Source: a virus. From it: a stretch of 50,372 bases of DNA. The position numbers and the translations under genes were made by a program. Positions within the stretch are counted from its first letter, which is position 1; each line of letters begins with the position of its first letter. Shown here piece by piece: positions 1 through 17,455 of this stretch. Location of the stretch: positions 1 through 50,372 of IMG/VR virus record IMGVR_UViG_3300037493_001371; one strand, given 5' to 3'. The notes beneath the pieces are model-generated. The model searched no databases and was not told where the DNA came from. It saw nothing but the letters and a program-made list of their open reading frames with translations.

Positions 1-372
1 TGCTGATGATCGTTGTGCTGTCGGCAGGTGTATAGCAACCGCATTTGCATTATCGTAGATTGCTTTTTGATCGTCAAGAATACCAACATAACAAGCAGTT
101 TCAAGATCGTTGTATTTTACAGACACATCAATATAAGCTTTGCCATTATCAATCCATAAACCTACAAAGCTTTTATCAGAACATAATTCTTCAATATTAG
201 TCATTATATATTCGCTTAATACAGTAGCACATAAATCATCAGCATCAATAACTAATTCATTGTTTGGTAATGATACCATATAACCATCAGTTGGATTTGA
301 TTCGCCAGTTGTTATGTTATAACTACCACCATTATTTTTTAATACTTCAGATAAAAATGTTTGTAAATTCAT
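1..372 (-). CDS. Hypothetical early protein, C-terminus cut by window edge
   Basis: The leftward frame opens at the ATG at 370-372 and stays open to base 1 (124 codons), so the C-terminus lies outside the window. The N-terminus reads MNLQTFLSEVLKNNGGSYNI and is followed by an acidic, mixed alpha/beta-looking protein without membrane segments or a recognisable motif. It is the last gene seen in the leftward array. No 41-nt promoter motif lies directly in front of it, so it is probably co-transcribed with the gene ending at 392. Function unknown. Confidence 0.75.
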   Translation of the reverse strand, partial: MNLQTFLSEVLKNNGGSYNITTGESNPTDGYMVSLPNNELVIDADDLCATVLSEYIMTNIEELCSDKSFVGLWIDNGKAYIDVSVKYNDLETACYVGILDDQKAIYDNANAVAIHLPTAQRSSA

Positions 373-391
373 ATTGTTAATTTTTTTATTG

Positions 392-664
392 TTATAATAT
401 TACTGTTTGTCCGTAAGCTTTTACTTTTAATAATCTATCGAAATTGAATGTTCCGTAACCATCATCTTGCATTGAGAAAACAATTAAGTTGCCTCGTGCT
501 TCAGGGTTATATTTTAGACCAGTACCTGATCTATATTTACTTACGCCAAAGCGTACCACCATTGTTCTTTCAGTATAGTCTTCTTTTAAGAACTTGATAC
601 TGAACAGTTTACCTTCATTGCCAACAAAGTCTTTGAAGTCTTGTATTGTTTTAATTGTATTCAT
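392..664 (-). CDS. Small SH3-like beta-barrel phage protein
   Basis: A 90-residue protein starting MNTIKTIQDF. The start at 664 is preferred over an upstream in-frame start because it lies 4 nt after the stop of the preceding gene (669). The stretch around residues 35-75 (TMVVRFGVSKY, then GLKYNPEARGNLIVFSMQ, then GYGTFNFDRL) matches my recollection of a small phage family described as SH3 beta-barrel fold proteins, usually with a NPK..NLLVVFD..K.GYR.INLD pattern. That assignment is recognition without a search. The role in infection is unknown. It sits in the early leftward operon. Confidence 0.7.
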   Translation of the reverse strand: MNTIKTIQDFKDFVGNEGKLFSIKFLKEDYTERTMVVRFGVSKYRSGTGLKYNPEARGNLIVFSMQDDGYGTFNFDRLLKVKAYGQTVIL

Positions 665-668
665 ATAT

Positions 669-1037
669 TTATTCTTCTTCTTTATTAGTTTCAAAATAAT
701 CTGGTAATTCACATAAAAAATCTCTAGCAAATTGAGTTTCATCAAATCTTGCATTGATTTCAAGTGAATAACTTCCGCCATAAGAACCGTGAATCTCAGG
801 GTCATAATCTAAATATTGATCAAAGTCATAGTTATCAAGCATATCTTTAACGGCTTTTAATATTTCATTGGTACTATATCCAATTACTGGCTCTGGTACA
901 ACTTCAGGTAATTCACAAATACAGTCGTTTAATGTAGTTAATAATCCGAGCACGTCATTTTTAGAAAAGATACTGCTAGATGAATTGTTTACTTTTGAAA
1001 TTGTTACTTCGAATAGTGTTTTTTGATCTTGTGTCAT
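669..1037 (-). CDS. Hypothetical acidic early protein
   Basis: 122 residues starting MTQDQKTLFEV, strongly acidic toward the C-terminus (ending TNKEEE). A Gly/Tyr/Ser-rich patch (HGSYGGSYSLEINARFD) suggests a beta-hairpin. No signal peptide, membrane segment or catalytic motif is visible. A copy of the early promoter motif lies 14-58 nt upstream of the start. The downstream gene follows after 4 nt, so the two are probably an operon. Function unknown. Confidence 0.7.
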   Translation of the reverse strand: MTQDQKTLFEVTISKVNNSSSSIFSKNDVLGLLTTLNDCICELPEVVPEPVIGYSTNEILKAVKDMLDNYDFDQYLDYDPEIHGSYGGSYSLEINARFDETQFARDFLCELPDYFETNKEEE

Positions 1038-1050
1038 AGTTTATTTTTTT

Positions 1051-1095
1051 TATATTTATATTATCGTTTTGTTATTGTATTTAGTCCGCATGTAT
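1051..1095 (-). promoter_or_regulatory. Early promoter motif copy 1 (divergent)
   Basis: Read leftward this matches the 41-nt consensus ACAG-N5-AYACGA-N8-TGATAATATAWATGTAAC with several deviations: the first block is GCGG, the second ATACAA, and the -10-like block ACGATAATATAAATATAA. Spacing is preserved. It sits directly upstream of the gene starting at 1037. Confidence 0.55.
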
Positions 1096-1101
1096 AGCAT
1101 A

Positions 1102-1311
1102 CTACTTCTCATAGAAATGCAGACATTCACTTAATGGAAAGGCTATGGTGCCATCGGGTTCTTGTATATAACTGCCGTTTGATTCAGAAAGTATATCAAA
1201 GAATATTGTATTGTTTTTTACTCTATTAAGTTTTACTTCGCAATCCATTACAGTGTCAGTATAATATATAACATCAGGTTGTATATTAATTAATTCTACA
1301 GGTTTATTCAT
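1102..1311 (-). CDS. Hypothetical small early protein
   Basis: 69 residues starting MNKPVELINIQPDVIYYTDT and ending in LHFYEK. Alternating hydrophobic residues suggest a small beta-rich domain. There is no signal peptide or known motif. The promoter motif at 1326-1369 lies immediately upstream, and the next downstream gene has its own motif, so this may be a monocistronic unit. Function unknown. Confidence 0.65.
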   Translation of the reverse strand: MNKPVELINIQPDVIYYTDTVMDCEVKLNRVKNNTIFFDILSESNGSYIQEPDGTIAFPLSECLHFYEK

Positions 1312-1325
1312 ATATAATTAGTTTT

Positions 1326-1369
1326 TGTTACATTAGTATTATCATTGTTTAATCGTGTCCAGACTGTAT
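1326..1369 (-). promoter_or_regulatory. Early promoter motif copy 2
   Basis: Leftward: ACAG, 5 nt, ACACGA, 8 nt, then TGATAATACTAATGTAAC. A near-perfect match 15 nt upstream of the start codon at 1311. Confidence 0.8.
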
Positions 1370-1375
1370 GTCTTA

Positions 1376-1555
1376 TTAATCTTTAACAATATAAGTAAAC
1401 CCTCTAAAGTTAAACCACGAAGTTATACCATATTGTTCTTTATCTTCATCCGCAATGAATCCAAATCGTGGTGGTAAATCACCGATCAAGTATGGTGTAT
1501 ATAATAAACCATCTAATCTTATCAAGTTGTTCTTTAAAAATTTAATCTTTTTCAT
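1376..1555 (-). CDS. Hypothetical 59-residue early protein
   Basis: A frame too short for most automatic calls. ATG at 1553-1555, stop at 1376-1378, N-terminus MKKIKFLKNNLIRLDGLLYT, with an aromatic C-terminal half (SWFNFRGFTYIVKD). Its start lies inside the last codons of the upstream gene (stop at 1542), a 14-nt overlap typical of translational coupling. No known domain. Confidence 0.65.
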   Translation of the reverse strand: MKKIKFLKNNLIRLDGLLYTPYLIGDLPPRFGFIADEDKEQYGITSWFNFRGFTYIVKD

Positions 1556-1775
1556 TTTCTAGTACTTTAAGTATGTAATTCCAAATATCTAATTCTCTTT
1601 CAGCAGAGCGTAAGCATGATTCCAATTGTTCTTGTGATAACGCACCGTTGCCATTACCATTAGAGCTTTTAAGTTCTTGTTTGTAATCCGCTATATCAAA
1701 TTGCAGTGTTATTACTTTAGCCGTGGCTTTGTTTATGGATAGTTCTTTTTGTTCTAATTCTTTCATCGTTTTCAA
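1542..1775 (-). CDS. Hypothetical coiled-coil early protein
   Basis: 77 residues, predicted mostly helical. Residues 4-35 (KELEQKELSINKATAKV..) and 48-77 look like two coiled-coil helices split by a short Asn/Gly linker (SSNGNGNG). A second ATG four codons in is a possible alternative start. It overlaps the following 59-codon gene by 14 nt. Function unknown; small coiled-coil proteins of this type are common in phage early regions. Confidence 0.65.
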   Translation of the reverse strand: MKTMKELEQKELSINKATAKVITLQFDIADYKQELKSSNGNGNGALSQEQLESCLRSAERELDIWNYILKVLENEKD

Positions 1776-1881
1776 TTATAATGTTAAATGCACGGTCCAT
1801 GCTTTGTAGGTTTGCCATGTGTACGTTTTGTACTTTAAGCATCCAGTCGTAAAATTTTTCTAGGTTAGTTGTAGTTTTCAT
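1717..1881 (-). CDS. Possible 54-residue overlapping early protein
   Basis: The ATG at 1879-1881 lies inside the last codons of the preceding gene (stop at 1865). The frame runs 54 codons (MKTTTNLEKFYDWMLKVQNV...) to a stop at 1717-1719, overlapping the start of the next gene by 59 nt. The upstream half (1776-1864) is not covered by any other frame, so something probably is translated here. The long overlap makes this call tentative; a leader region is the alternative. Confidence 0.4.
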   Translation of the reverse strand: MKTTTNLEKFYDWMLKVQNVHMANLQSMDRAFNIIIENDERIRTKRTIHKQSHG

Positions 1882-2068
1882 ATACTTCTTCATAAATTAA
1901 ATCAATTTCTTCTTCACTCAATATAGGCATAATGTCTACATCTTTATAGTTAATTGCTGTTATAATTATATCAGGATTCTCAGCAGGACTATTCCATGTT
2001 CCCGGTATATAATCACATATAACGTCATATTCAACATCAATTTTTTCTCCTCTATACTTTACAATCAT
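1865..2068 (-). CDS. Hypothetical small acidic early protein
   Basis: 67 residues starting MIVKYRGEKIDVEYDV, ending with an acidic helix (SEEEIDLIYEEVYENYN). The body looks like a small beta-sheet domain followed by this helix. It has its own upstream promoter motif (2086-2130), and the next short frame starts within its final codons. I recognise the general type (small phage proteins with a DI..LLS..E.I pattern) but no named family. Confidence 0.65.
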   Translation of the reverse strand: MIVKYRGEKIDVEYDVICDYIPGTWNSPAENPDIIITAINYKDVDIMPILSEEEIDLIYEEVYENYN

Positions 2069-2085
2069 TTTGTTATTTGTTTATT

Positions 2086-2130
2086 TGTTACATATATATT
2101 ATCAATATAGTTTCGTGTCTAGTCTGTATC
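2086..2130 (-). promoter_or_regulatory. Early promoter motif copy 3
   Basis: Leftward: ACAG, 5 nt, ACACGA, 8 nt, TGATAATATATATGTAAC, a full match. It lies 18 nt upstream of the ATG at 2068 and overlaps the 3' end of the preceding gene (stop at 2102), so coding and promoter functions share bases. Confidence 0.85.
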
Positions 2131-2455
2131 TAACCATAAAGTCATCAGCCCATGGTAATAAACCGTGTTGTGTTTCTAAAAATGGTTCAAACTTTCTTAT
2201 TCGCAAACGAGATGTTGAGCCAAGTGTGTATAGCAAACAGTTTAGTCGTTCTTGAGTGGTACGTGTATGCCAACCGCAAGTTGAAATAAATATTGTACCA
2301 TCAGGTAGCATCTTTGCAATTGTATTACCAAATAACATTAAGTACCAGCAATCATCATATTCGCGCACTCCTTTTGACACAGCCATATTTTCTCTATTAA
2401 ATGTTTCTTTGTTTAAAAACGCATTAATAGAATCTTGGGATATTTTTTTGTACAT
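2102..2455 (-). CDS. Hypothetical early protein (GWHTRTTxERLN type)
   Basis: 117 residues starting MYKKISQDSINAFLNKETFN. I chose the ATG at 2455 over an upstream TTG because it lies 1 nt after the stop of the preceding gene. The central segment (LMLFGNTIAKMLPDG, then ISTCGWHTRTTQERLN) resembles a recurrent phage protein whose hallmark is a GWxTRTTKERLN motif; its function is not known to me. Two apparent rightward frames over this gene are shadows. Confidence 0.75.
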   Translation of the reverse strand: MYKKISQDSINAFLNKETFNRENMAVSKGVREYDDCWYLMLFGNTIAKMLPDGTIFISTCGWHTRTTQERLNCLLYTLGSTSRLRIRKFEPFLETQHGLLPWADDFMVRYRLDTKLY

Positions 2456-2456
2456 A

Positions 2457-2708
2457 CTATTCGTTATCAAATATTGTTAATCTTTCACCATCTTTTAATA
2501 CTCTTACTTCTAAAGTAACGCCTTCAACACACGTCCATCCAGAGCCATACTTCTCTCCAATAGGCACAGCGTAATATTTGTATCTTTGTACTATTCTGCC
2601 AACATAAGACGGATAGCTTTTATCTACAACAACTGCTATTTGACCATCTTTAAGGTCTTTCATTTGTACTACATTTTTTTCTTTTTTCTTTTTATTTAAC
2701 TCTACCAT
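2457..2708 (-). CDS. Hypothetical small beta-rich early protein
   Basis: 83 residues. The N-terminus is Lys-rich (VELNKKKKEKN), followed by a domain rich in Val, Tyr and Gly (residues 20-75) that looks like a small beta-barrel (DGQIAVVVDKSYPSYVGRIV). The start at 2708 lies 17 nt downstream of a promoter motif. It is followed after 1 nt by the gene at 2102-2455, so the pair is probably co-translated. No known function. Confidence 0.7.
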   Translation of the reverse strand: MVELNKKKKEKNVVQMKDLKDGQIAVVVDKSYPSYVGRIVQRYKYYAVPIGEKYGSGWTCVEGVTLEVRVLKDGERLTIFDNE

Positions 2709-2725
2709 AATTATTTATTTTTACT

Positions 2726-2769
2726 TGTTACATATATATTATCATTACTCAATCGTGTCTAGATTGTAA
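2726..2769 (-). promoter_or_regulatory. Early promoter motif copy 4
   Basis: Leftward: ACAA, 5 nt, ACACGA, 8 nt, TGATAATATATATGTAAC, one mismatch in the first block. It overlaps the stop codon of the zinc-ribbon gene (2759-2881) and lies 17 nt upstream of the ATG at 2708. Confidence 0.8.
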
Positions 2770-2881
2770 ATCCATTCTCGTCAAACTCTTCTTCAAAATC
2801 ACAATGCTCTAAACAGTCAGCGCAAAGTTCATTAAATATGTGATGTCTACCTGCACCACAGCAATCGCTATATTCTTCCAT
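2759..2881 (-). CDS. 40-residue putative zinc-ribbon protein
   Basis: ATG at 2879-2881, stop at 2759-2761. The protein begins MEEYSDCCGAGRHHIFNELC and continues ADCLEHCDFEEEFDENGFTI. The Cys-Cys-Gly-Ala, His-His, Cys-x-x-Cys pattern (Cys7, Cys8, His13/14, Cys20, Cys23) is what is seen in tiny phage zinc-ribbon proteins of the CCGA..CxxC type. It would bind one zinc and may contact nucleic acid or a host protein; the partner is unknown. No promoter motif lies directly upstream, so it probably shares the transcript of 2889-3260. Confidence 0.7.
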   Translation of the reverse strand: MEEYSDCCGAGRHHIFNELCADCLEHCDFEEEFDENGFTI

Positions 2882-2888
2882 AATTTAT

Positions 2889-3260
2889 TTATTCTATATG
2901 TGAGTATGTTTTGTTAATATTTACAGGTGTTATTTCGTAAAATTCAAGTCTAATTTCATTACTATATAGTTTGAACTTACCGGCTTTCCATAGTTCAATT
3001 TCGTGCTCATTAGCTTCTGCGTTATCCCCATCAACCAATACATTGTAATGTGCTTGATTTAGGGATTCATCATCTTCACAAAAACCTTTTGAATCAAATT
3101 TATAGTATAAATGGTGCTCAATATATCCTTGTATTGCATCTTGAATATTTGGTGCCATGATACAAGCCTCAAGTGTATAGCAATTAACCCAATCTAATTC
3201 ACCTTCAGTATAGTCATCGACATATACATTGTGGGAACTTTTAATTAAATACTCTTTCAT
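2889..3260 (-). CDS. Hypothetical acidic early protein
   Basis: 123 residues starting MKEYLIKSSHNVYVDDYTEG. Acidic with many aromatics, no signal or membrane segment. A pattern of Asn/His-rich loops and beta-strands at the C-terminus (FKLYSNEIRLEFYEITPV) suggests a compact alpha/beta fold. It is followed 7 nt later by the zinc-ribbon gene and preceded with 1 nt spacing by 3262-3546, indicating a tight operon. Function unknown. Confidence 0.7.
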   Translation of the reverse strand: MKEYLIKSSHNVYVDDYTEGELDWVNCYTLEACIMAPNIQDAIQGYIEHHLYYKFDSKGFCEDDESLNQAHYNVLVDGDNAEANEHEIELWKAGKFKLYSNEIRLEFYEITPVNINKTYSHIE

Positions 3261-3261
3261 A

Positions 3262-3546
3262 TTATTCAGGTATTAACCAAGTTAGTAATTCTTTCATATT
3301 TTTAAACTCGTATGCTTTGACGTGATCGCCTTGACTAGTGGCCTTAGCGACGTAACTCTGCATTGTAGTAGTGTCCCAACAGTCGAGTAAATTTGAATAA
3401 CCGTGATTGCTTAAGCCTACAAATCTATCTCTATCCGTTCTAATAACCATAGCTTTATGGTCACAACCCCAATCAATACCCACAAACGAGTTATTAGTTA
3501 TATCTTTGAAATCTATTGTATTTCCTGCATTTACTATTTGTTTCAT
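3262..3546 (-). CDS. Hypothetical early protein
   Basis: 94 residues starting MKQIVNAGNTIDFKDITNNS. The sequence SFVGIDWGCDHKAMVIRTDRD looks like paired beta-strands, and the C-terminal half is helical (AYEFKNMKELLTWLIPE). No catalytic motif or membrane segment is seen. One base separates it from each neighbour, so it is part of an operon from 4152 to 2759. Function unknown. Confidence 0.7.
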   Translation of the reverse strand: MKQIVNAGNTIDFKDITNNSFVGIDWGCDHKAMVIRTDRDRFVGLSNHGYSNLLDCWDTTTMQSYVAKATSQGDHVKAYEFKNMKELLTWLIPE

Positions 3547-3547
3547 A

Positions 3548-3742
3548 TTAATTACTTTTTAGTTTATAAATTATTTCACCTTGTAAATCTTCAATTATAC
3601 GCAATATGTGGTGAGATTCTCTAGCTTGAAGTTGGTCATTGGTGCGTATTGCATCCGCCATTACATCCGTATGTTCTTCATACAAATGGTCTAAAGCCAC
3701 TTGAATTATATTTGCTTCTCGTTTGTTTATAGTTAATTCCAT
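3548..3742 (-). CDS. Hypothetical small helical early protein
   Basis: 64 residues, almost entirely helical in appearance (MELTINKREANIIQVALDHL, then AIRTNDQLQARESHHILRII). This could be a two-helix hairpin. It lies in the tight leftward operon with 1-nt spacing on both sides. No recognised family. Confidence 0.7.
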   Translation of the reverse strand: MELTINKREANIIQVALDHLYEEHTDVMADAIRTNDQLQARESHHILRIIEDLQGEIIYKLKSN

Positions 3743-3743
3743 A

Positions 3744-3935
3744 TTAATCTCTATTTACAATTTCAAATTCTACATCAAAAAAGTCATCGCTATCTAACAC
3801 TAATTCTGCATTGTTATAGTCATACATTACAAACTCTATAGCTTGTTCTTCACTCGTTGCTTCAACGGTTACTATTCTAATAAGTGTTTCAACAACTTCA
3901 ACACTATATTCTTTTGTTACTGGATATACTCCCAT
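3744..3935 (-). CDS. Hypothetical small early protein
   Basis: 63 residues from the ATG at 3933-3935, chosen because it follows the stop of the upstream gene (3937) by 1 nt; the longer upstream frame would overlap that gene by about 100 nt. The sequence alternates hydrophobic and polar residues (MGVYPVTKEYSVEVVETLIR), fits a beta-alpha-beta domain, and is strongly acidic at the C-terminus (SDDFFDVEFEIVNRD). Function unknown. Confidence 0.7.
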   Translation of the reverse strand: MGVYPVTKEYSVEVVETLIRIVTVEATSEEQAIEFVMYDYNNAELVLDSDDFFDVEFEIVNRD

Positions 3936-3936
3936 A

Positions 3937-4152
3937 TTAATTTTCGTTTTCTTCGTTAATTTTATTTGATAAATTAAGCCAATAATCAACACCCTCTTTT
4001 GCTTGGGAGAAACGGAACCAACTATATACATCATATTTTCCACTTGTAATTAAGTGTGCAAGGTAATCATTACAACCATTCTCATCACTGTATAAATTAT
4101 CCAACGCTTTCATTTGGTCTTCTCTACTTAATTTTCTAAAATCTAAATTCAT
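3937..4152 (-). CDS. Hypothetical helical early protein
   Basis: 71 residues starting MNLDFRKLSREDQMKALDNL, helical, with a Trp/Phe-rich centre (YDVYSWFRFSQAKEGVDYWL). It is the first gene of a leftward operon led by the promoter motif at 4167-4209. Function unknown. Confidence 0.7.
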   Translation of the reverse strand: MNLDFRKLSREDQMKALDNLYSDENGCNDYLAHLITSGKYDVYSWFRFSQAKEGVDYWLNLSNKINEENEN

Positions 4153-4166
4153 ATATTATTATTTTT

Positions 4167-4209
4167 TGTTACATTATTATTATCAATCAACATTCGTATT
4201 AAGACTGTA
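4167..4209 (-). promoter_or_regulatory. Early promoter motif copy 5
   Basis: Leftward: ACAG, 5 nt, ATACGA, 8 nt, TGATAATAATAATGTAAC. A near-perfect match 14 nt upstream of the ATG at 4152. It overlaps the stop region of 4199-4417. It appears to lead the six-gene operon down to about 2759. Confidence 0.8.
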
Positions 4210-4417
4210 AAGGTACATTGTTATGGTTCCACAATCCTCTAAAAGCATGGGTCTTCCCTTTGCGAAATACACTCTTGCCGCGAGTAACCACCTTGCTACT
4301 TTCCTTAGCCGTAAAATTGCGTATCTCACCATATTGTAATCGAACTAATTCTAAATGTAGGTTGCACTTAGCCCTACGAGCACGTGAAGAGTACTCACAT
4401 AATTCTTTCATTGTCAT
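4199..4417 (-). CDS. Hypothetical small basic early protein
   Basis: 72 residues starting MTMKELCEYSSRARRAKCNL. Unlike its acidic neighbours it is rich in Arg and Lys (RGKSVFRKGKTHAFRGLW), so nucleic-acid or ribosome binding is possible, though there is no identifiable motif. A rightward 71-codon frame on the other strand covers the same bases; I treat that one as a shadow because it has no regulatory context. Confidence 0.6.
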   Translation of the reverse strand: MTMKELCEYSSRARRAKCNLHLELVRLQYGEIRNFTAKESSKVVTRGKSVFRKGKTHAFRGLWNHNNVPLQS

Positions 4418-4429
4418 AATTTCTATATT

Positions 4430-4603
4430 TTAAATGTATTTATAAATATTTTTCTCAACATCCGCAATAACATCATCTTCATCATAGAAAGAATATACCT
4501 CCTCCACTATAACATCAAATGTATCATTCTTAAAAGTATCATCTCGGTGAATATACTCTATATAACCACTACCCATATCGGTTTCAAACTCAATTCTCGT
4601 CAT
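4430..4603 (-). CDS. Hypothetical 57-residue acidic early protein
   Basis: ATG at 4601-4603, stop at 4430-4432. Sequence begins MTRIEFETDMGSGYIEYIHR and ends in an acidic helix (DEDDVIADVEKNIYKYI). It fits exactly between neighbouring genes with 12 nt on the left. No family recognised. The codon pattern resembles its neighbours. Confidence 0.65.
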   Translation of the reverse strand: MTRIEFETDMGSGYIEYIHRDDTFKNDTFDVIVEEVYSFYDEDDVIADVEKNIYKYI

Positions 4604-4629
4604 AATCTATACTTTTTAATTGTTATTTA

Positions 4630-4728
4630 CTATCTTCTCATCGCCCAAGCAGCGTTTTTAGCGCCCTCTAAGAGCTCAAATTTGATTTTTAATATTACTA
4701 CCCTAAATGCACTAGAATAATTCGCCAT
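4630..4728 (-). CDS. Possible 32-residue micro-protein
   Basis: ATG at 4726-4728 and stop at 4630-4632. It encodes an amphipathic helix (MANYSSAFRVVILKIKFELL, then EGAKNAAWAMRR). The strongest support is position: a promoter motif (4747-4796) lies 18 nt upstream, just as for the larger early genes. A leader for the 4430 gene is the alternative. Confidence 0.5.
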   Translation of the reverse strand: MANYSSAFRVVILKIKFELLEGAKNAAWAMRR

Positions 4729-4746
4729 AATCGTTTATATTTATTT

Positions 4747-4796
4747 GTTATACTTACATTTATATTATCAAACCACCATCGTATTGTTATCGTATG
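4747..4796 (-). promoter_or_regulatory. Early promoter motif copy 6
   Basis: Leftward: ACGA, 5 nt, ATACGA, 8 nt, TGATAATATAAATGTAAG. Slightly degenerate in the first block. It lies upstream of the micro-gene starting at 4728. Confidence 0.7.
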
Positions 4797-4881
4797 AAGG
4801 TTGAACTTCATTTATGTGAATAAAAGTTAAGGCAGGTATTATCACCTCTCTAAGTGCTTGTTATTCAACGAAATACGTTAA

Positions 4882-5145
4882 TTAATCGTTTTTATACTCA
4901 AAATGTGCCCAAATTACTTGATTGATACGGTCAATTTCGGTATTACCATTCAAATAACCGTTTAAGGAGTTATAGAACTTGGTTAAGTCTTCATCCACAT
5001 CGCTAAAGTTTTTTACGAAGTAATCATAATCGTCACTTTGACAATAATTTAACCCAATTACTACTTCATTACTCTTTATTACAAGTACATGGCGGTCATT
5101 ATCCTCACACCAATAAATCTCTCTACTTTCTATTAATCTATTCAT
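4882..5145 (-). CDS. Hypothetical acidic early protein
   Basis: 87 residues starting MNRLIESREIYWCEDNDRHV. Acidic alpha/beta-looking with two Cys residues not arranged as a metal site. A promoter motif at 5163-5205 lies 18 nt upstream. About 85 nt of untranslated sequence follows before the next promoter. Function unknown. Confidence 0.7.
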   Translation of the reverse strand: MNRLIESREIYWCEDNDRHVLVIKSNEVVIGLNYCQSDDYDYFVKNFSDVDEDLTKFYNSLNGYLNGNTEIDRINQVIWAHFEYKND

Positions 5146-5162
5146 ACTTTATATTATTTATT

Positions 5163-5205
5163 TGTTACATATATATTATCAAATGAGTCTCGTGTTTTGA
5201 CTGTA
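5163..5205 (-). promoter_or_regulatory. Early promoter motif copy 7
   Basis: Leftward: ACAG, 5 nt, ACACGA, 8 nt, TGATAATATATATGTAAC, a perfect match to the consensus. It is preceded by GTATAGCAT, a 9-mer also found upstream of the copy at 6759-6796. It drives the gene starting at 5145. Confidence 0.85.
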
Positions 5206-5383
5206 TGCTATACACGGTACCAATACGGTACGGTGAAGATCCTTGGCGACCCAACGGGTTTTGGGAAAAGTGTGACATTAGGGTCTTAAGTTAATAAATA
5301 GTAGGCTAACGTCACCTTTTTTATGTTACATAAATATAGTGTAGGACGGAGTCTACTCTTCCGACTCTATTTCAAAGTCAGGC
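5206..5383 (-). ncRNA. Candidate structured small RNA downstream of a promoter
   Basis: This interval lies between two leftward promoter motifs (5384-5424 and 5163-5205) and contains no credible open frame. Read leftward it offers several stem-loops: GAGTC/GACTC, the 44-nt stem-loop element, AACCC/GGGT and GTACC/GGTAC. It is more GC-rich than the surroundings. I infer an early non-coding transcript or a long leader; there is no family match I can name. Confidence 0.35.
5272..5315. repeat. 44-nt stem-loop element, copy 1
   Basis: Arms GTGACATTAG (5272-5281) and CTAACGTCAC (5306-5315) pair 9 of 10. The 24-nt loop includes TTAAGT and AATAAATAGTAGG. A second copy at 7193-7236 agrees at 37 of 44 positions, including most of the loop. 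A run of T follows on the + strand, so it could stop rightward transcripts. Loop conservation suggests more than a plain terminator. Confidence 0.7.
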
Positions 5384-5424
5384 CCATATATATTATCAAA
5401 TGGTAACCGTGTTACCTCTGTGTG
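5384..5424 (-). promoter_or_regulatory. Early promoter motif copy 8 (orphan)
   Basis: Leftward: ACAG, 5 nt, ACACGG, 8 nt, TGATAATATATATGGGCC. The core is conserved, but the usual GTAAC end is replaced by GGGCC. No open frame follows it; it leads into the structured region 5206-5383. Confidence 0.7.
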
Positions 5425-5446
5425 CTATACACCCGTGACCGGGTTG

Positions 5447-5533
5447 TTAGTTGATCAATGCTAAGGTTAGGAATACTCCTGCTCCAAAGCTTAACACTGC
5501 TAATACGATTGTATCAATTTGTTCTTGTTTCAT
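5447..5533 (-). CDS. Possible 28-residue transmembrane micro-protein
   Basis: ATG at 5531-5533, stop at 5447-5449. MKQEQIDT is followed by one hydrophobic helix (IVLAVLSFGAGVFLTLALIN) that fits a single membrane span with the N-terminus likely cytoplasmic. Its start overlaps the end of the upstream 48-codon frame by 20 nt. Small membrane peptides occur in phage early regions, but at this length the evidence is context plus composition only. Confidence 0.5.
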   Translation of the reverse strand: MKQEQIDTIVLAVLSFGAGVFLTLALIN

Positions 5534-5660
5534 CTTTAGTTACTTTTACTGGGTTATTATTTAGTTTAGTTAATCGTTGCTCGATATAAGATTCGAGTGA
5601 TCCGCTTTTGTAGCATGCCTGCACGTATGTTGCTCGGCGTTTAGTCTTGTTACTTAACAT
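5514..5660 (-). CDS. Hypothetical 48-residue basic protein
   Basis: ATG at 5658-5660, stop TGA at 5514-5516. Sequence MLSNKTKRRATYVQACYKSG followed by SLESYIEQRLTKLNNN. Basic and helical. It overlaps the gene upstream by 11 nt and the one downstream by 20 nt, the coupling pattern of the whole cluster. Function unknown. Confidence 0.55.
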   Translation of the reverse strand: MLSNKTKRRATYVQACYKSGSLESYIEQRLTKLNNNPVKVTKDETRTN

Positions 5661-5823
5661 AATTAAACATATCTAAGATGTGGTGACCTAATTCATTTTG
5701 TTCGTCAGTTAATTCTTCGCTGTATTTGTACAGGAATTCATCTAAACTCATTTCATCAAGTGTTGGGAACTGTGCCATAAAAGCTCTTGCTAATTCGTGC
5801 ATGTCATTTTCAAATAGTCTCAT
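5650..5823 (-). CDS. Hypothetical 57-residue helical early protein
   Basis: ATG at 5821-5823, stop at 5650-5652. Acidic and helical (MRLFENDMHELARAFMAQFP, then LDEMSLDEFLYKYSEELTDE). The promoter motif at 5838-5880 lies 15 nt upstream, which makes it first of a three-gene micro-operon. No named family. Confidence 0.65.
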   Translation of the reverse strand: MRLFENDMHELARAFMAQFPTLDEMSLDEFLYKYSEELTDEQNELGHHILDMFNYVK

Positions 5824-5837
5824 AATTATTTATTTTA

Positions 5838-5880
5838 GTTACATTTATATTATCAATTGTACTTCGTATTAATTCTGTAT
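5838..5880 (-). promoter_or_regulatory. Early promoter motif copy 9
   Basis: Leftward: ACAG, 5 nt, ATACGA, 8 nt, TGATAATATAAATGTAAC, a perfect consensus match. It leads the micro-operon beginning at 5823. Confidence 0.85.
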
Positions 5881-5934
5881 GTATAGCATCCGTAGAGGCT
5901 CAATGATTACAGCGTGTTGAGGTTGAAACAACGA

Positions 5935-6294
5935 CTATTCAGTCGCTGCCTCAAGTTGTTCAACAGTCGCTAAGTGTCTAACGTTAGCCGGCATATCAGT
6001 TGATTGTGACCAGTACTCACGCTTAATCCAACATGGCATGATTGATAGTTTAGGTAACATTACATTCAACACATCGTCATGATTGTAAGTAACACGTTGA
6101 TTCTTGTTATTAACGAATGTGATTACTTGATTACGTCCTAACCACGACTTGCGTACTACAAAGTTGGCTCGTTGTATTGGCGGATAGATTAGAGCCAATT
6201 GTTCAGGTGTTAATGCCGCGATGGCTTCAGATAATAATTCTTTACCAGTCTTTACTACTTCTTGTACTTGTTGTACTTCTTTTACTTTTTTCAT
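5935..6294 (-). CDS. Hypothetical early protein
   Basis: 119 residues. It starts with a Lys/Glu/Val helix (MKKVKEVQQVQEVVKTGKEL), followed by a helical segment (LTPEQLALIYPPIQRANFVV) and a Lys/Arg/Trp-rich centre (RKSWLGRNQVITFVNNKNQR). That middle part could be a compact beta domain. The base composition is less AT-rich than in neighbours, which may reflect a different history. A promoter motif lies at 6324-6365. Function unknown; the rightward frame at 6221-6502 is a shadow. Confidence 0.7.
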   Translation of the reverse strand: MKKVKEVQQVQEVVKTGKELLSEAIAALTPEQLALIYPPIQRANFVVRKSWLGRNQVITFVNNKNQRVTYNHDDVLNVMLPKLSIMPCWIKREYWSQSTDMPANVRHLATVEQLEAATE

Positions 6295-6323
6295 AATTTG
6301 TTTATTTATTTGTTATTATTTAT

Positions 6324-6365
6324 TTACATTTATATTATCAAATACTCGTCGTATTTATTCTGTAT
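6324..6365 (-). promoter_or_regulatory. Early promoter motif copy 10
   Basis: Leftward: ACAG, 5 nt, ATACGA, 8 nt, TGATAATATAAATGTAAA. It overlaps the stop codon of 6355-6462 and lies about 30 nt upstream of the ATG at 6294. Confidence 0.85.
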
Positions 6366-6462
6366 ACTCTTGTTCTATTGATATTAAAGTATCAATATAT
6401 TCTAGTAGTACATTATCATTTGTTAACTTTCTTAGTTCTTGTAATTTTTCTAGGTTGTTCAT
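6355..6462 (-). CDS. 35-residue helical micro-protein
   Basis: ATG at 6460-6462, stop at 6355-6357 inside the next promoter motif. Sequence MNNLEKLQELRKLTNDNVLL then EYIDTLISIEQEYTE, an amphipathic helical hairpin. It is framed by its own promoter motif at 6479-6522, 17 nt upstream. Function unknown. Confidence 0.6.
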   Translation of the reverse strand: MNNLEKLQELRKLTNDNVLLEYIDTLISIEQEYTE

Positions 6463-6478
6463 AGTTATATTATTTATT

Positions 6479-6522
6479 TGTTACACTTATATTATCAGTT
6501 AGTCGTCGTATTAATACTGTAT
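6479..6522 (-). promoter_or_regulatory. Early promoter motif copy 11
   Basis: Leftward: ACAG, 5 nt, ATACGA, 8 nt, TGATAATATAAGTGTAAC. It lies upstream of the micro-gene starting at 6462 and next to the stop codon of the gene at 6524-6649. Confidence 0.8.
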
Positions 6523-6523
6523 A

Positions 6524-6649
6524 CTATAGTTCATTATTATAATAAGTTAATTCTTCTTCTAAGACTTCATTCAATGGATAGCCATGTAGTTCACAAAATT
6601 CTTGTAAGTCTTTTATTCTTTTAATTAATTCTTTGTCAAGTGTTGTCAT
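6524..6649 (-). CDS. 41-residue helical micro-protein
   Basis: ATG at 6647-6649, stop at 6524-6526. Sequence MTTLDKELIKRIKDLQEFCE followed by LHGYPLNEVLEEELTYYNNE. Helical and acidic at the end. The promoter motif at 6664-6704 lies 15 nt upstream. It is the first gene of the leftward array. No known family. Confidence 0.6.
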   Translation of the reverse strand: MTTLDKELIKRIKDLQEFCELHGYPLNEVLEEELTYYNNEL

Positions 6650-6663
6650 AGTATATTTATTTA

Positions 6664-6704
6664 GTTACATTATTATTATCAAATACTCGTCGTATTTATT
6701 CTGT
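6664..6704 (-). promoter_or_regulatory. Early promoter motif copy 12
   Basis: Leftward: ACAG, 5 nt, ATACGA, 8 nt, TGATAATAATAATGTAAC. Almost identical to the copy at 6324-6365 over the whole 41 nt, spacer included. It drives the gene starting at 6649. Confidence 0.85.
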
Positions 6705-6758
6705 AAACACATTACATTTATTAAATTTAATTAGTAATGTTATTCACTTTTTAACTTC

Positions 6759-6796
6759 ATATATATTATCAAATACTCTTCGTGTTTACTCTGTAT
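6759..6796 (-). promoter_or_regulatory. Early promoter motif copy 13 (outermost)
   Basis: Leftward: ACAG, 5 nt, ACACGA, 8 nt, TGATAATATATATGAAG. It is preceded by GTATAGCAT as in copy 7. It is the most upstream copy; only a 6-codon frame lies between it and copy 12, so the pair may be a double promoter for the first early gene. Confidence 0.75.
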
Positions 6797-7085
6797 GCTA
6801 TACATGCTACGCTACGCTCCGCATGTGTTGTTGTATGTAATGTATCGGTACACAATCCAATGTAACGAACGTATACAAATGCAGCACAAGTGTATCACAT
6901 CACGGTATAGACGTATGAACATGCACGATGCACGCCAAGCACAATCCCTAGTATTCTAAACCATTACATATCTACAAACGGAAAAGGTAAAACATTTCCA
7001 ACGATTTCAATTTATACGCCCGGGGGTGGTTAAAACAGATTCATTTTCTTTTCAGAAAGCTGTAGCTGAACGTAGTATGTAACCC

Positions 7086-7164
7086 CTTAGTTCCATATAT
7101 CTAATAAGATATTTTTACATAATTACAACTTAGTTCCATATATCTGATAACATTTTTTCACATA
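7086..7164. repeat. Two tandem 36-nt repeats, 43-nt period
   Basis: Copies at 7086-7121 and 7129-7164 share CTTAGTTCCATATATCT and then ATAA-x-AT-x-TTTT-x-ACATA (32 of 36 identical). Direct repeats in a divergent control region could be activator or replication-protein binding sites. On the minus strand their ATATATGGAAC part resembles the end of the early promoter motif (ATATATGTAAC). Confidence 0.7.
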
Positions 7165-7192
7165 TCCCATATTGCAATATAAAATATAAAGA

Positions 7193-7236
7193 GTGACATT
7201 AGCTAATTAAGTAAATAAATAGTAGGCTATTGTCAC
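7193..7236. repeat. 44-nt stem-loop element, copy 2
   Basis: Arms GTGACATTAG (7193-7202) and CTATTGTCAC (7227-7236) pair 9 of 10, with a loop containing TTAAGT and AATAAATAGTAGG. It is the partner of the copy at 5272-5315. Unlike copy 1, no T-run follows, so it is unlikely to be a simple terminator. It lies 75 nt upstream of the first rightward gene. Confidence 0.7.
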
Positions 7237-7310
7237 ACTATTATTTATGAATTTTGGTTGTAAAATTTTGATCCGATGCGTAATTGTATATACTATATTA
7301 AAAGAGTATT

Positions 7311-7586
7311 ATGGAATTTGAACTAGGTATAAAATCCCCTTTGTTAAAGCAGAAGTTATCACCGTTGGCGGCTAAGAAGAAAGCGGCAAGGGATTTGGCT
7401 TATGCTAAAACGGATGATAGAAGAATTAAGAAAGCACACTCACAGAGAATGCATCGTAAAAATCCTGGTAATAAAGGTATGGACTATGACCATGAAGATG
7501 GTAGGTTTGAATCTGTAAAGCAGAATAGAGGTAATGAGGGTGAGGGTACTAAAAAGGAAAGTGGTAAAAAATATAAAACTAAATAA
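7311..7586 (+). CDS. Small basic protein with DYDHEDGRF motif
   Basis: 91 residues, very rich in Lys and Arg. After an N-terminal part (residues 1-50) with LSPLAAKKKAARDLAYAK, the C-terminal half reads MDYDHEDGRFESVKQNRGNE and ends GTKKESGKKYKTK. The D-Y-D-H-x-D-G-R-F string resembles the DHDHxTGxxRG core of endonuclease VII-like HNH proteins, but the Cys zinc ligands are missing. I therefore prefer a virion-associated or DNA-binding basic protein. First gene of the rightward block. Confidence 0.7.
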   Translation: MEFELGIKSPLLKQKLSPLAAKKKAARDLAYAKTDDRRIKKAHSQRMHRKNPGNKGMDYDHEDGRFESVKQNRGNEGEGTKKESGKKYKTK

Positions 7587-15892: not shown

Positions 15893-17455
15893 ATGTCAGA
15901 TGAAATAGTAAAGAATCTCAGCTTTGGTAACGAAGCACGAGATAATGTATTTGCCGGTATAACAAAGTTAACTAAAGCAGTTAGCTCAACATTAGGAGCC
16001 GGTGGAAAATGCGTAATGTTGGAAGACAGTAAAGGTAGACCGTTAATTACAAAAGACGGGGTTACAGTTGCAGACAGTATTACATTATTAGATCCTGTAG
16101 AAAATATGGGTGCAAGGCTTTTAAAAGAAGCAGCTAGGAAAACAGTTAAAGAAGCTGGCGATGGTACAACTACCGCAACGGTATTAGCACATGCAATTTT
16201 AGAAGAAGCTTATGCAATTCAAGATACTGTAAGTTCAAGAGATTTAAAAAACGGTATTGAGACTACAGTAGATAAAGTTATAGAATATTTAGAATCTATT
16301 AAAGTTCCCGTAACTGGAGATATGATAGATCACATTGCCACTATATCAACAAACAACGATCCAGTACTTGGTAAAATTATTGGTGATGCTTTTAGAGCAG
16401 TTGGTGAAACTGGTATTGTTATGATGGAATCATCAGCAAATCCAGAAACAGAAATAGAAATTATAGATGGTGTACAATATGATAAAGGATTAGTAAATTC
16501 AAACTTTATCACAAACCCAAATAAAAGAATTGCCGAATTAGAAAATCCATTAGTATTGATTGTTGAATCACCAGTGGAATCTATTCGTCAGATACAATCA
16601 GTTTTAGAATATGTAATAAAGAATAACAAACCGTTATTAATTATTGCAGACATGGAACAAACTGTACTATCTGCTTTAGCAATGAATAAAGTTAAAGGTA
16701 ATATAAAGGTTAACGTTATCAATGCGCCTACTTATGGTATCACAAAAAAGGATACCTTAATGGATCTTGCTTTATTAACTGGAGCTACAATTATAAATGA
16801 AGATCTAGGAGACGATATGGATCTTATAGATATTGAATGTTTAGGTAACTGTTTGAAAGCAATAACAGATGACAGCGAAACAATATTACACGTTGGTGAA
16901 ACAAAAGAAGAAGTGCAAGAATTAATTGATGAGTTAAATTCGCAATTAAAAGATGCAACTGCTCCTGGTGATGTTATTAGATTAGAAAGAAGATTAGCTA
17001 GACTATCGGCAAAAGTTGCTGTTGTAAAAGTAGGTGCTGGATCTGATTTAGAATTAAAAGAAAAAGCTGATAGGGTTGAAGACGCAATTTGCGCAACCAA
17101 AGCAGCGATTAAAGAAGGAATTGTTCCAGGTGGAGGAATTGCTCTTTTAGATGCTTCAAAAAATGTCTTAACCACAAACAACGGAGGCATTGCTCTTCTA
17201 AGAGCCATTAAAGCTCCGTTTAAGACAATATTAAGTAATGCTGGTATTGATCATCCAGGAGATGATTGGAATCGCTTAGAAGGCTCTGGATTAAATGCCG
17301 TAACCGGTGAACAAGTGAACATGATAGAAGCAGGAATTATTGATCCTCTATCTGTTACTAAGAGCGCATTAAAAAATGCAGCATCCGTAGCTGTTACAAT
17401 ATTATCAACCGATTGTGTAATTAATAATTTAAGAGTTAATGAGAGCAATAGGTAA
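15893..17455 (+). CDS. groEL: GroEL-type chaperonin (60 kDa)
   Basis: 520 residues, near full length (E. coli GroEL has 548), with all three domains. ATP-site motifs are intact: KDGVTVA (54-60, Asp55), GDGTTTATVLA (89-99, Asp90) and RVEDAICATK with Asp397, the equivalent of catalytic Asp398, followed by EGIVPGGGIALL. The apical domain is recognisable (GVQYDKGLVNSNFI, KPLLIIADME). The Gly-Gly-Met tail of bacterial GroEL is missing; the protein ends VINNLRVNESNR. It would form an ATP-driven ring folding phage proteins such as capsid or fibre subunits. The GroES-like gene overlaps its end by 17 nt. Confidence 0.97.
   Translation: MSDEIVKNLSFGNEARDNVFAGITKLTKAVSSTLGAGGKCVMLEDSKGRPLITKDGVTVADSITLLDPVENMGARLLKEAARKTVKEAGDGTTTATVLAHAILEEAYAIQDTVSSRDLKNGIETTVDKVIEYLESIKVPVTGDMIDHIATISTNNDPVLGKIIGDAFRAVGETGIVMMESSANPETEIEIIDGVQYDKGLVNSNFITNPNKRIAELENPLVLIVESPVESIRQIQSVLEYVIKNNKPLLIIADMEQTVLSALAMNKVKGNIKVNVINAPTYGITKKDTLMDLALLTGATIINEDLGDDMDLIDIECLGNCLKAITDDSETILHVGETKEEVQELIDELNSQLKDATAPGDVIRLERRLARLSAKVAVVKVGAGSDLELKEKADRVEDAICATKAAIKEGIVPGGGIALLDASKNVLTTNNGGIALLRAIKAPFKTILSNAGIDHPGDDWNRLEGSGLNAVTGEQVNMIEAGIIDPLSVTKSALKNAASVAVTILSTDCVINNLRVNESNR

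Follow-up and report, generated by a model that had tools for sequence, protein, structure and literature searches.

The question raised by this locus was what function is served by two similar 44-nt sequences with complementary arms in a 50,372-base virus record, a fragment that was analyzed over its whole length and is hereafter called the window; the preliminary description had suggested binding sites, replication elements or RNA switches. The features on which the argument first depends were as follows:

5272..5315, plus strand: element copy E2, a 44-bp imperfect inverted repeat
7193..7236, plus strand: copy E3 of the element, ahead of the late genes
5935..6294, minus strand: gene of the 119-aa protein p119, a candidate regulator, bracketed by E2 and E3
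7311..7586, plus strand: first rightward late gene (91 aa)

Both copies were confirmed in the same orientation with an identity of 37/44, and the similarity between them extended to 49 nt (84%), i.e., beyond the 44 nt delimited at the outset. The GTGAC...GTCAC arms formed 9 of 10 pairs in each copy, as had been described: from the outermost to the innermost position, these were GC, TA, GC, AT, CG, A.C, TA, TA, AT and GC in the copy at 5272 and GC, TA, GC, AT, CG, AT, T.T, TA, AT and GC in the copy at 7193. The mismatch was located at position 6 of the former (where it becomes G.U when read on the minus strand) and at position 7 of the latter. The loop AATAAATAGTAGGCTA was the same in both copies, which agrees with the earlier claim of loop conservation. 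The joint pattern of the 44-mer occurred exactly twice in the window and in none of 100 dinucleotide shuffles. The gene map likewise bore out that the copies flank a cluster of leftward early genes, to which the ORF at 5935-6294 belongs, and the copy at 7193 was found in the gap between the leftward early genes and the rightward late genes.

Judging from the sequences, the 44-mers are members of a large unlisted family of elements present in uncultivated relatives of flavobacterial podoviruses. No Rfam 15 family scored above its gathering threshold for the 44-mers. Scanning of viral contigs with a 16-mer yielded 40 stretches, many of them without arms, and a stricter pattern yielded 42. The alignment built from 60 distinct elements was conserved in sequence in the loop and the inner arm, and the model matched all 44 records searched whole, which had been picked for carrying the element. 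In 10 named relatives, drawn from 87 records with a terminase or portal matching that of the window, the best match was no better than E = 0.9; the nearest terminase was 65% identical. A search of 50,697 named phages yielded no isolate bearing the element. The search of the remaining genome and of related phages that had been proposed thus gave two copies in the window and a family in uncultivated relatives, and the absence from all related phages that would have spoken against the element was not observed, although the 10 named relatives lack it. The family seemingly has not been described so far: among the titles and abstract openings of the library searched, no paper describing this element was found, and in a term search of PMC7077304 the words promoter, terminator, hairpin, stem-loop and intergenic did not occur.

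In genomes with all sites recovered, the elements were assigned to three classes, namely, E1 at the start of the gene for a 206-aa helix-turn-helix (HTH) protein (HTH-206), E2 (the copy at 5272) beside early promoter-like repeats, and E3 (the copy at 7193) upstream of the late genes. In the orientation of the window, the gene order was HTH-206, an inverted E1, several small early genes grouped together and read leftward, one or two copies of E2, a few leftward genes including p119, and then E3 and the rightward late genes. All three classes were present in 14 of the 17 fetched regions, the other three (L104, L105 and L107) stopping before E3. A third copy, expected to the left, is not visible here because the window is a fragment, its left end presumably cutting the early block. 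In a single 129,537-base contig (L099 and L100), two diverged E1-E2-E3 sets were located approximately 62 kb apart, which represent either an assembly artifact uniting two phages or a record resembling a concatemer. As a separate observation, positions 15893-17455 of the window contain a phage GroEL gene, and the relatives carry GroEL and GroES.

Two phage proteins accompany the element. The p119 protein was conserved far above the adjacent ORFs of 57, 48 and 41 aa; it had no Pfam match, its best PHROG match was no better than E = 0.011, and fold searches returned nothing confident (best VIA Z 3.0, PvuII), so that by sequence p119 appears to belong to no known family. It was not found in the 50,697 named phages, and a profile search, run with no positive control, detected it in none of the 10 element-less named relatives. 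Among 80 p119 loci taken from 128 relatives in viral contigs, approximately 26 of which were already known via the element (judged by contig names), the element was found in the fetched flank of 79 (the exception being L164) and on both sides in 61; 147 of 148 element matches were on the strand opposite the p119 gene. In a more distant p119 family (80 loci taken from 207 relatives), the element was detected in 76 loci at a permissive E < 1 and with a score of at least 20 in 67. Bacterial and archaeal genomes contained two p119 relatives, both in metagenome-assembled genomes. A second p119 copy was present at L099:3436-3675, its middle part appearing frame-shifted relative to the other copy.

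The element was also found at the start of the HTH-206 gene in 77 of 80 loci taken from 132 relatives; three loci (L282-L284) had no element, and in L297-L300 it was located by eye approximately 20 nt upstream of the start. The start codon lay inside the 3' arm of E1 in 26/26 cases, and among more distant HTH-206 copies, the element spanned it in 17/20. E1 was no more than 21 nt from the stop of the upstream ORF in 10 of 17 cases and overlapped a short ORF in two more; therefore, no promoter directly precedes E1. The HTH match of HTH-206 fell below the Pfam cut-off, its structure model was poor as a whole, although a helical portion at the C-terminus was predicted with confidence, and a fold search gave nothing confident. 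A first guess that this gene encodes an Erf-like annealing protein was wrong, the C-terminus being HTH-like. No HTH-206 was found in named phages by tblastn, and a weak profile match was obtained in two Elemovirus records. HTH-206 and p119 are thus candidate binders on the basis of sequence; HTH-206 was present in 20 of the 23 long p119 contigs, and therefore the binder could not be narrowed to one of them.

The position of the element relative to promoter-like motifs was analyzed using the following features:

5174..5181, minus strand: core of an early promoter-like repeat (TATTATCA on the plus strand), leftward, left of E2, spacing 98; putative function
5391..5398, minus strand: core of an early promoter-like repeat, leftward, right of E2, spacing 75; putative function
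5340..5386, minus strand: second conserved hairpin, S2, adjoining the right early promoter-like repeat
7258..7265, plus strand: -35-like TTGTAAAA of a putative late promoter, recognized by eye
7280..7292, plus strand: motif GTAATTGTATATA, resembling a late promoter, spaced 43 nt from E3 on the downstream side; putative function

A repeat of approximately 64 nt with this early core, found ahead of many leftward early genes (window 1-7310), is probably the early promoter; positions 1-7310 contained 13 copies of the core, all on a single strand, and the remainder of the window contained 3 on this strand. The hairpin S2 was present in 50/80 p119 loci and in 16/80 distant ones, 34 nt of it occurred at 94% in the 160-kb Flavobacterium phage immuto, and it matched no Rfam family. 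Downstream of E3, directly ahead of the first late gene, a conserved motif (T/C)GTRA(K)TATA was found. A late-motif score, composed after the sequences had been seen, was strong for 86 of 130 elements upstream of p119, a set including distant loci in which some may be of the E2 kind, versus 2/71 E2 elements and 4/130 shuffled sequences. A motif (T/C)AACCC(C/A) occurred ahead of E3 in 35/64 cases and ahead of E2 in 6/61. A host-sigma promoter upstream of E3 was rejected, TAnnTTTG being too weak (16/64 versus 6/64 in shuffled sequences), and in L126, L127 and L137 a tRNA-like sequence was seen by eye right after the late promoter-like motif.

The spacings from E3 to the late motif clustered at 21-27, 33-36, 42-48 and 55-57, i.e., in a ladder of approximately 10.5 bp (best period 10.75, R = 0.61, n = 57 nonredundant, the redundancy filters removing relatedness only in part), and this periodicity was equalled by none of 5000 jittered sets. 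Pairwise differences in E3 spacing among relatives peaked at 0-2, 9-12, 20-22 and 30-31, and the ladder recurred inside separate p119 clades. From E2 to the left early-repeat core, the best period was 10.5 (p = 0.003, n = 16), and for the right core, p was 0.05 (n = 5); the window spacings of 43, 98 and 75 all fit these ladders. Spacing in helical register is characteristic of proteins that contact one another along duplex DNA. Because the ladder is helically phased, the 44-mers are read here as operator-like sites on duplex DNA for a phage-encoded early-to-late regulator, which we consider fairly probable from the sequence evidence. From E3, this protein would reach RNA polymerase at the putative late promoter, which is located downstream by a whole number of helical turns; its targets at E2 would be the putative early promoters to either side; and at E1, outside the window, it would probably act on the start of the HTH-206 gene as feedback. 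Its effect may be activation or repression. Among the three functions suggested initially, binding sites were thus strengthened by the conserved positions, the phasing of approximately 10.5 bp and the co-occurrence with two phage proteins.

The RNA switch fared less well. A hairpin in mRNA with an obligatory defect, bound by p119 and controlling translation of HTH-206 as well as the leader of the late genes, was our first reading, and it was replaced once the spacing ladder appeared. The evidence bearing on it was drawn from 395 element matches, 28 of them unparsable, the remainder representing 205 distinct elements. Positions 6 and 7 were both Watson-Crick in only 3 of 205 elements, compared with a shuffled mean of 44 (range 28-62), and this avoidance persisted after redundancy filters (3/129; 1/57 versus 13 expected at 80% nonredundancy), in E2 (1/49 versus 7.8), in E3 (0/54 versus 12.3) and in the distant group (2/69 versus 13); E1 was outside this shuffle test, its right arm being fixed by the start codon. 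Complete 10/10 pairing occurred in none of 129 nonredundant elements. That complete pairing is avoided suits a hairpin more readily than a plain operator, and the intercistronic E1, whose arm contains the start codon, points the same way. Compared with shuffled versions, the inner loops had the better folds (mean z = -1.1), and the sense strand folded better than the antisense in 134 of the 205 elements but worse in 68. Against the RNA hairpin, no compensatory change was found in the stem (17 pairs tested, largest z = 2.1 at pair 12; in a smaller alignment, both sides had changed in one sequence for 1/5 predicted pairs), the wobble signal was mixed (pair 2 favoring the sense and pair 1 the antisense strand), E2 has an antisense orientation with respect to the early genes read leftward, and the phasing of E3 and E2 to the promoter-like motifs is left unexplained. 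The spacing ladders and the missing compensatory change are why the duplex-DNA operator was favored, and the RNA operator by itself is considered unlikely. The lack of positive covariation is as expected for sequence-specific half-sites, and the invariant bases (GAC and G10) share positions in both halves. It should be noted that a symmetric operator offers no obvious reason for the avoidance at positions 6 and 7; this half-site rule and the start codon in E1 are not accounted for by the operator model and leave room for an RNA role. A switch with two modes, in which p119, as a new nucleic-acid-binding fold, would read both a duplex operator at the promoters and an imperfect RNA hairpin over the HTH-206 start, is rather improbable in our estimation.

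Smaller chances were assigned to explanations other than regulator binding. A bidirectional terminator or insulator at gene-cluster borders would suit E2, where a TTTT was no more than 10 nt away in 38/56 cases on the sense side and in 44/56 on the antisense side, and is nevertheless judged very unlikely: at E3 the corresponding values were just 21/59 and 17/59, E1 continues into coding sequence, a terminator scan limited to loops of 3-8 nt found none at either window copy, and a G+C-rich stem with a T run was not found at all copies, T runs being common at E2 only. The conservation of the loop and inner arm also speaks against it, as the preliminary description rightly remarked for the loop. 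The third function suggested there, a replication origin, joined here with recombination or packaging sites, is scarcely probable; the element is repeated, partly palindromic and near the turning point of the GC skew of the window, but its positions follow gene starts and promoter-like motifs, and the skew change coincides with a change of coding strand as well. The least credible explanation is an antisense small RNA, in which E2 on the early leftward transcript would pair with the E1 and E3 leaders. Along the direction of transcription E2 is inverted relative to E1, and in the window a promoter-like repeat faces E2, as such pairing would have it, whereas in several genomes the nearest repeat is on the other side of E2, and loops compared by eye were more alike within a class across genomes than between classes in one genome.

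Among known systems, HK022 put RNA and lambda nut likewise comprise two related hairpins, located where divergent phage transcripts begin, and act as RNA on the elongating polymerase, suppressing termination; the 44-mers differ from them in their phased spacing to promoter-like motifs and in the antisense placement of E2. The promoters of the N4 virion RNA polymerase are single-strand hairpins, few per genome, in a large podovirus, as the present elements are few per genome; however, the early genes of the window have a separate repeated promoter-like sequence, and the 44-mer is located upstream of a distinct late motif. The truncated giant ORF had no match in Pfam, the one database against which it was run. 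A closer likeness was found in phi29, where the sites of p4 are imperfect inverted repeats in several copies beside early and late promoters, and this single phage protein, a DNA-binding protein with a binding motif new at its time, represses early and activates late promoters (PMC3100819). Both systems have several imperfect inverted repeats per genome with non-identical half-sites, and the 44-mers are phased to motifs of putative promoter function. The phi29 half-sites, however, are short, 15 bp apart and confined to one region, whereas the 44-bp elements are distributed over several kb, up to approximately 15 kb; the Pfam, PHROG and fold searches of p119 disclosed no protein family in common, and activation or repression through the 44-mers is putative. 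By analogy, the element may work like the p4 sites, yet on present evidence it is no member of that family.

The rule that the half-sites be non-identical represents a separate puzzle, namely, how a protein reads a near-symmetric site; if the two-mode switch were true, its double use of the site would show itself in the obligatory difference between the halves at positions 6-7. Gene timing in these flavobacterial podoviruses seems little known, judging from paper titles and abstract openings. If the operator reading is right, the sites, two candidate regulators and the late promoter motif would be obtained in one go.
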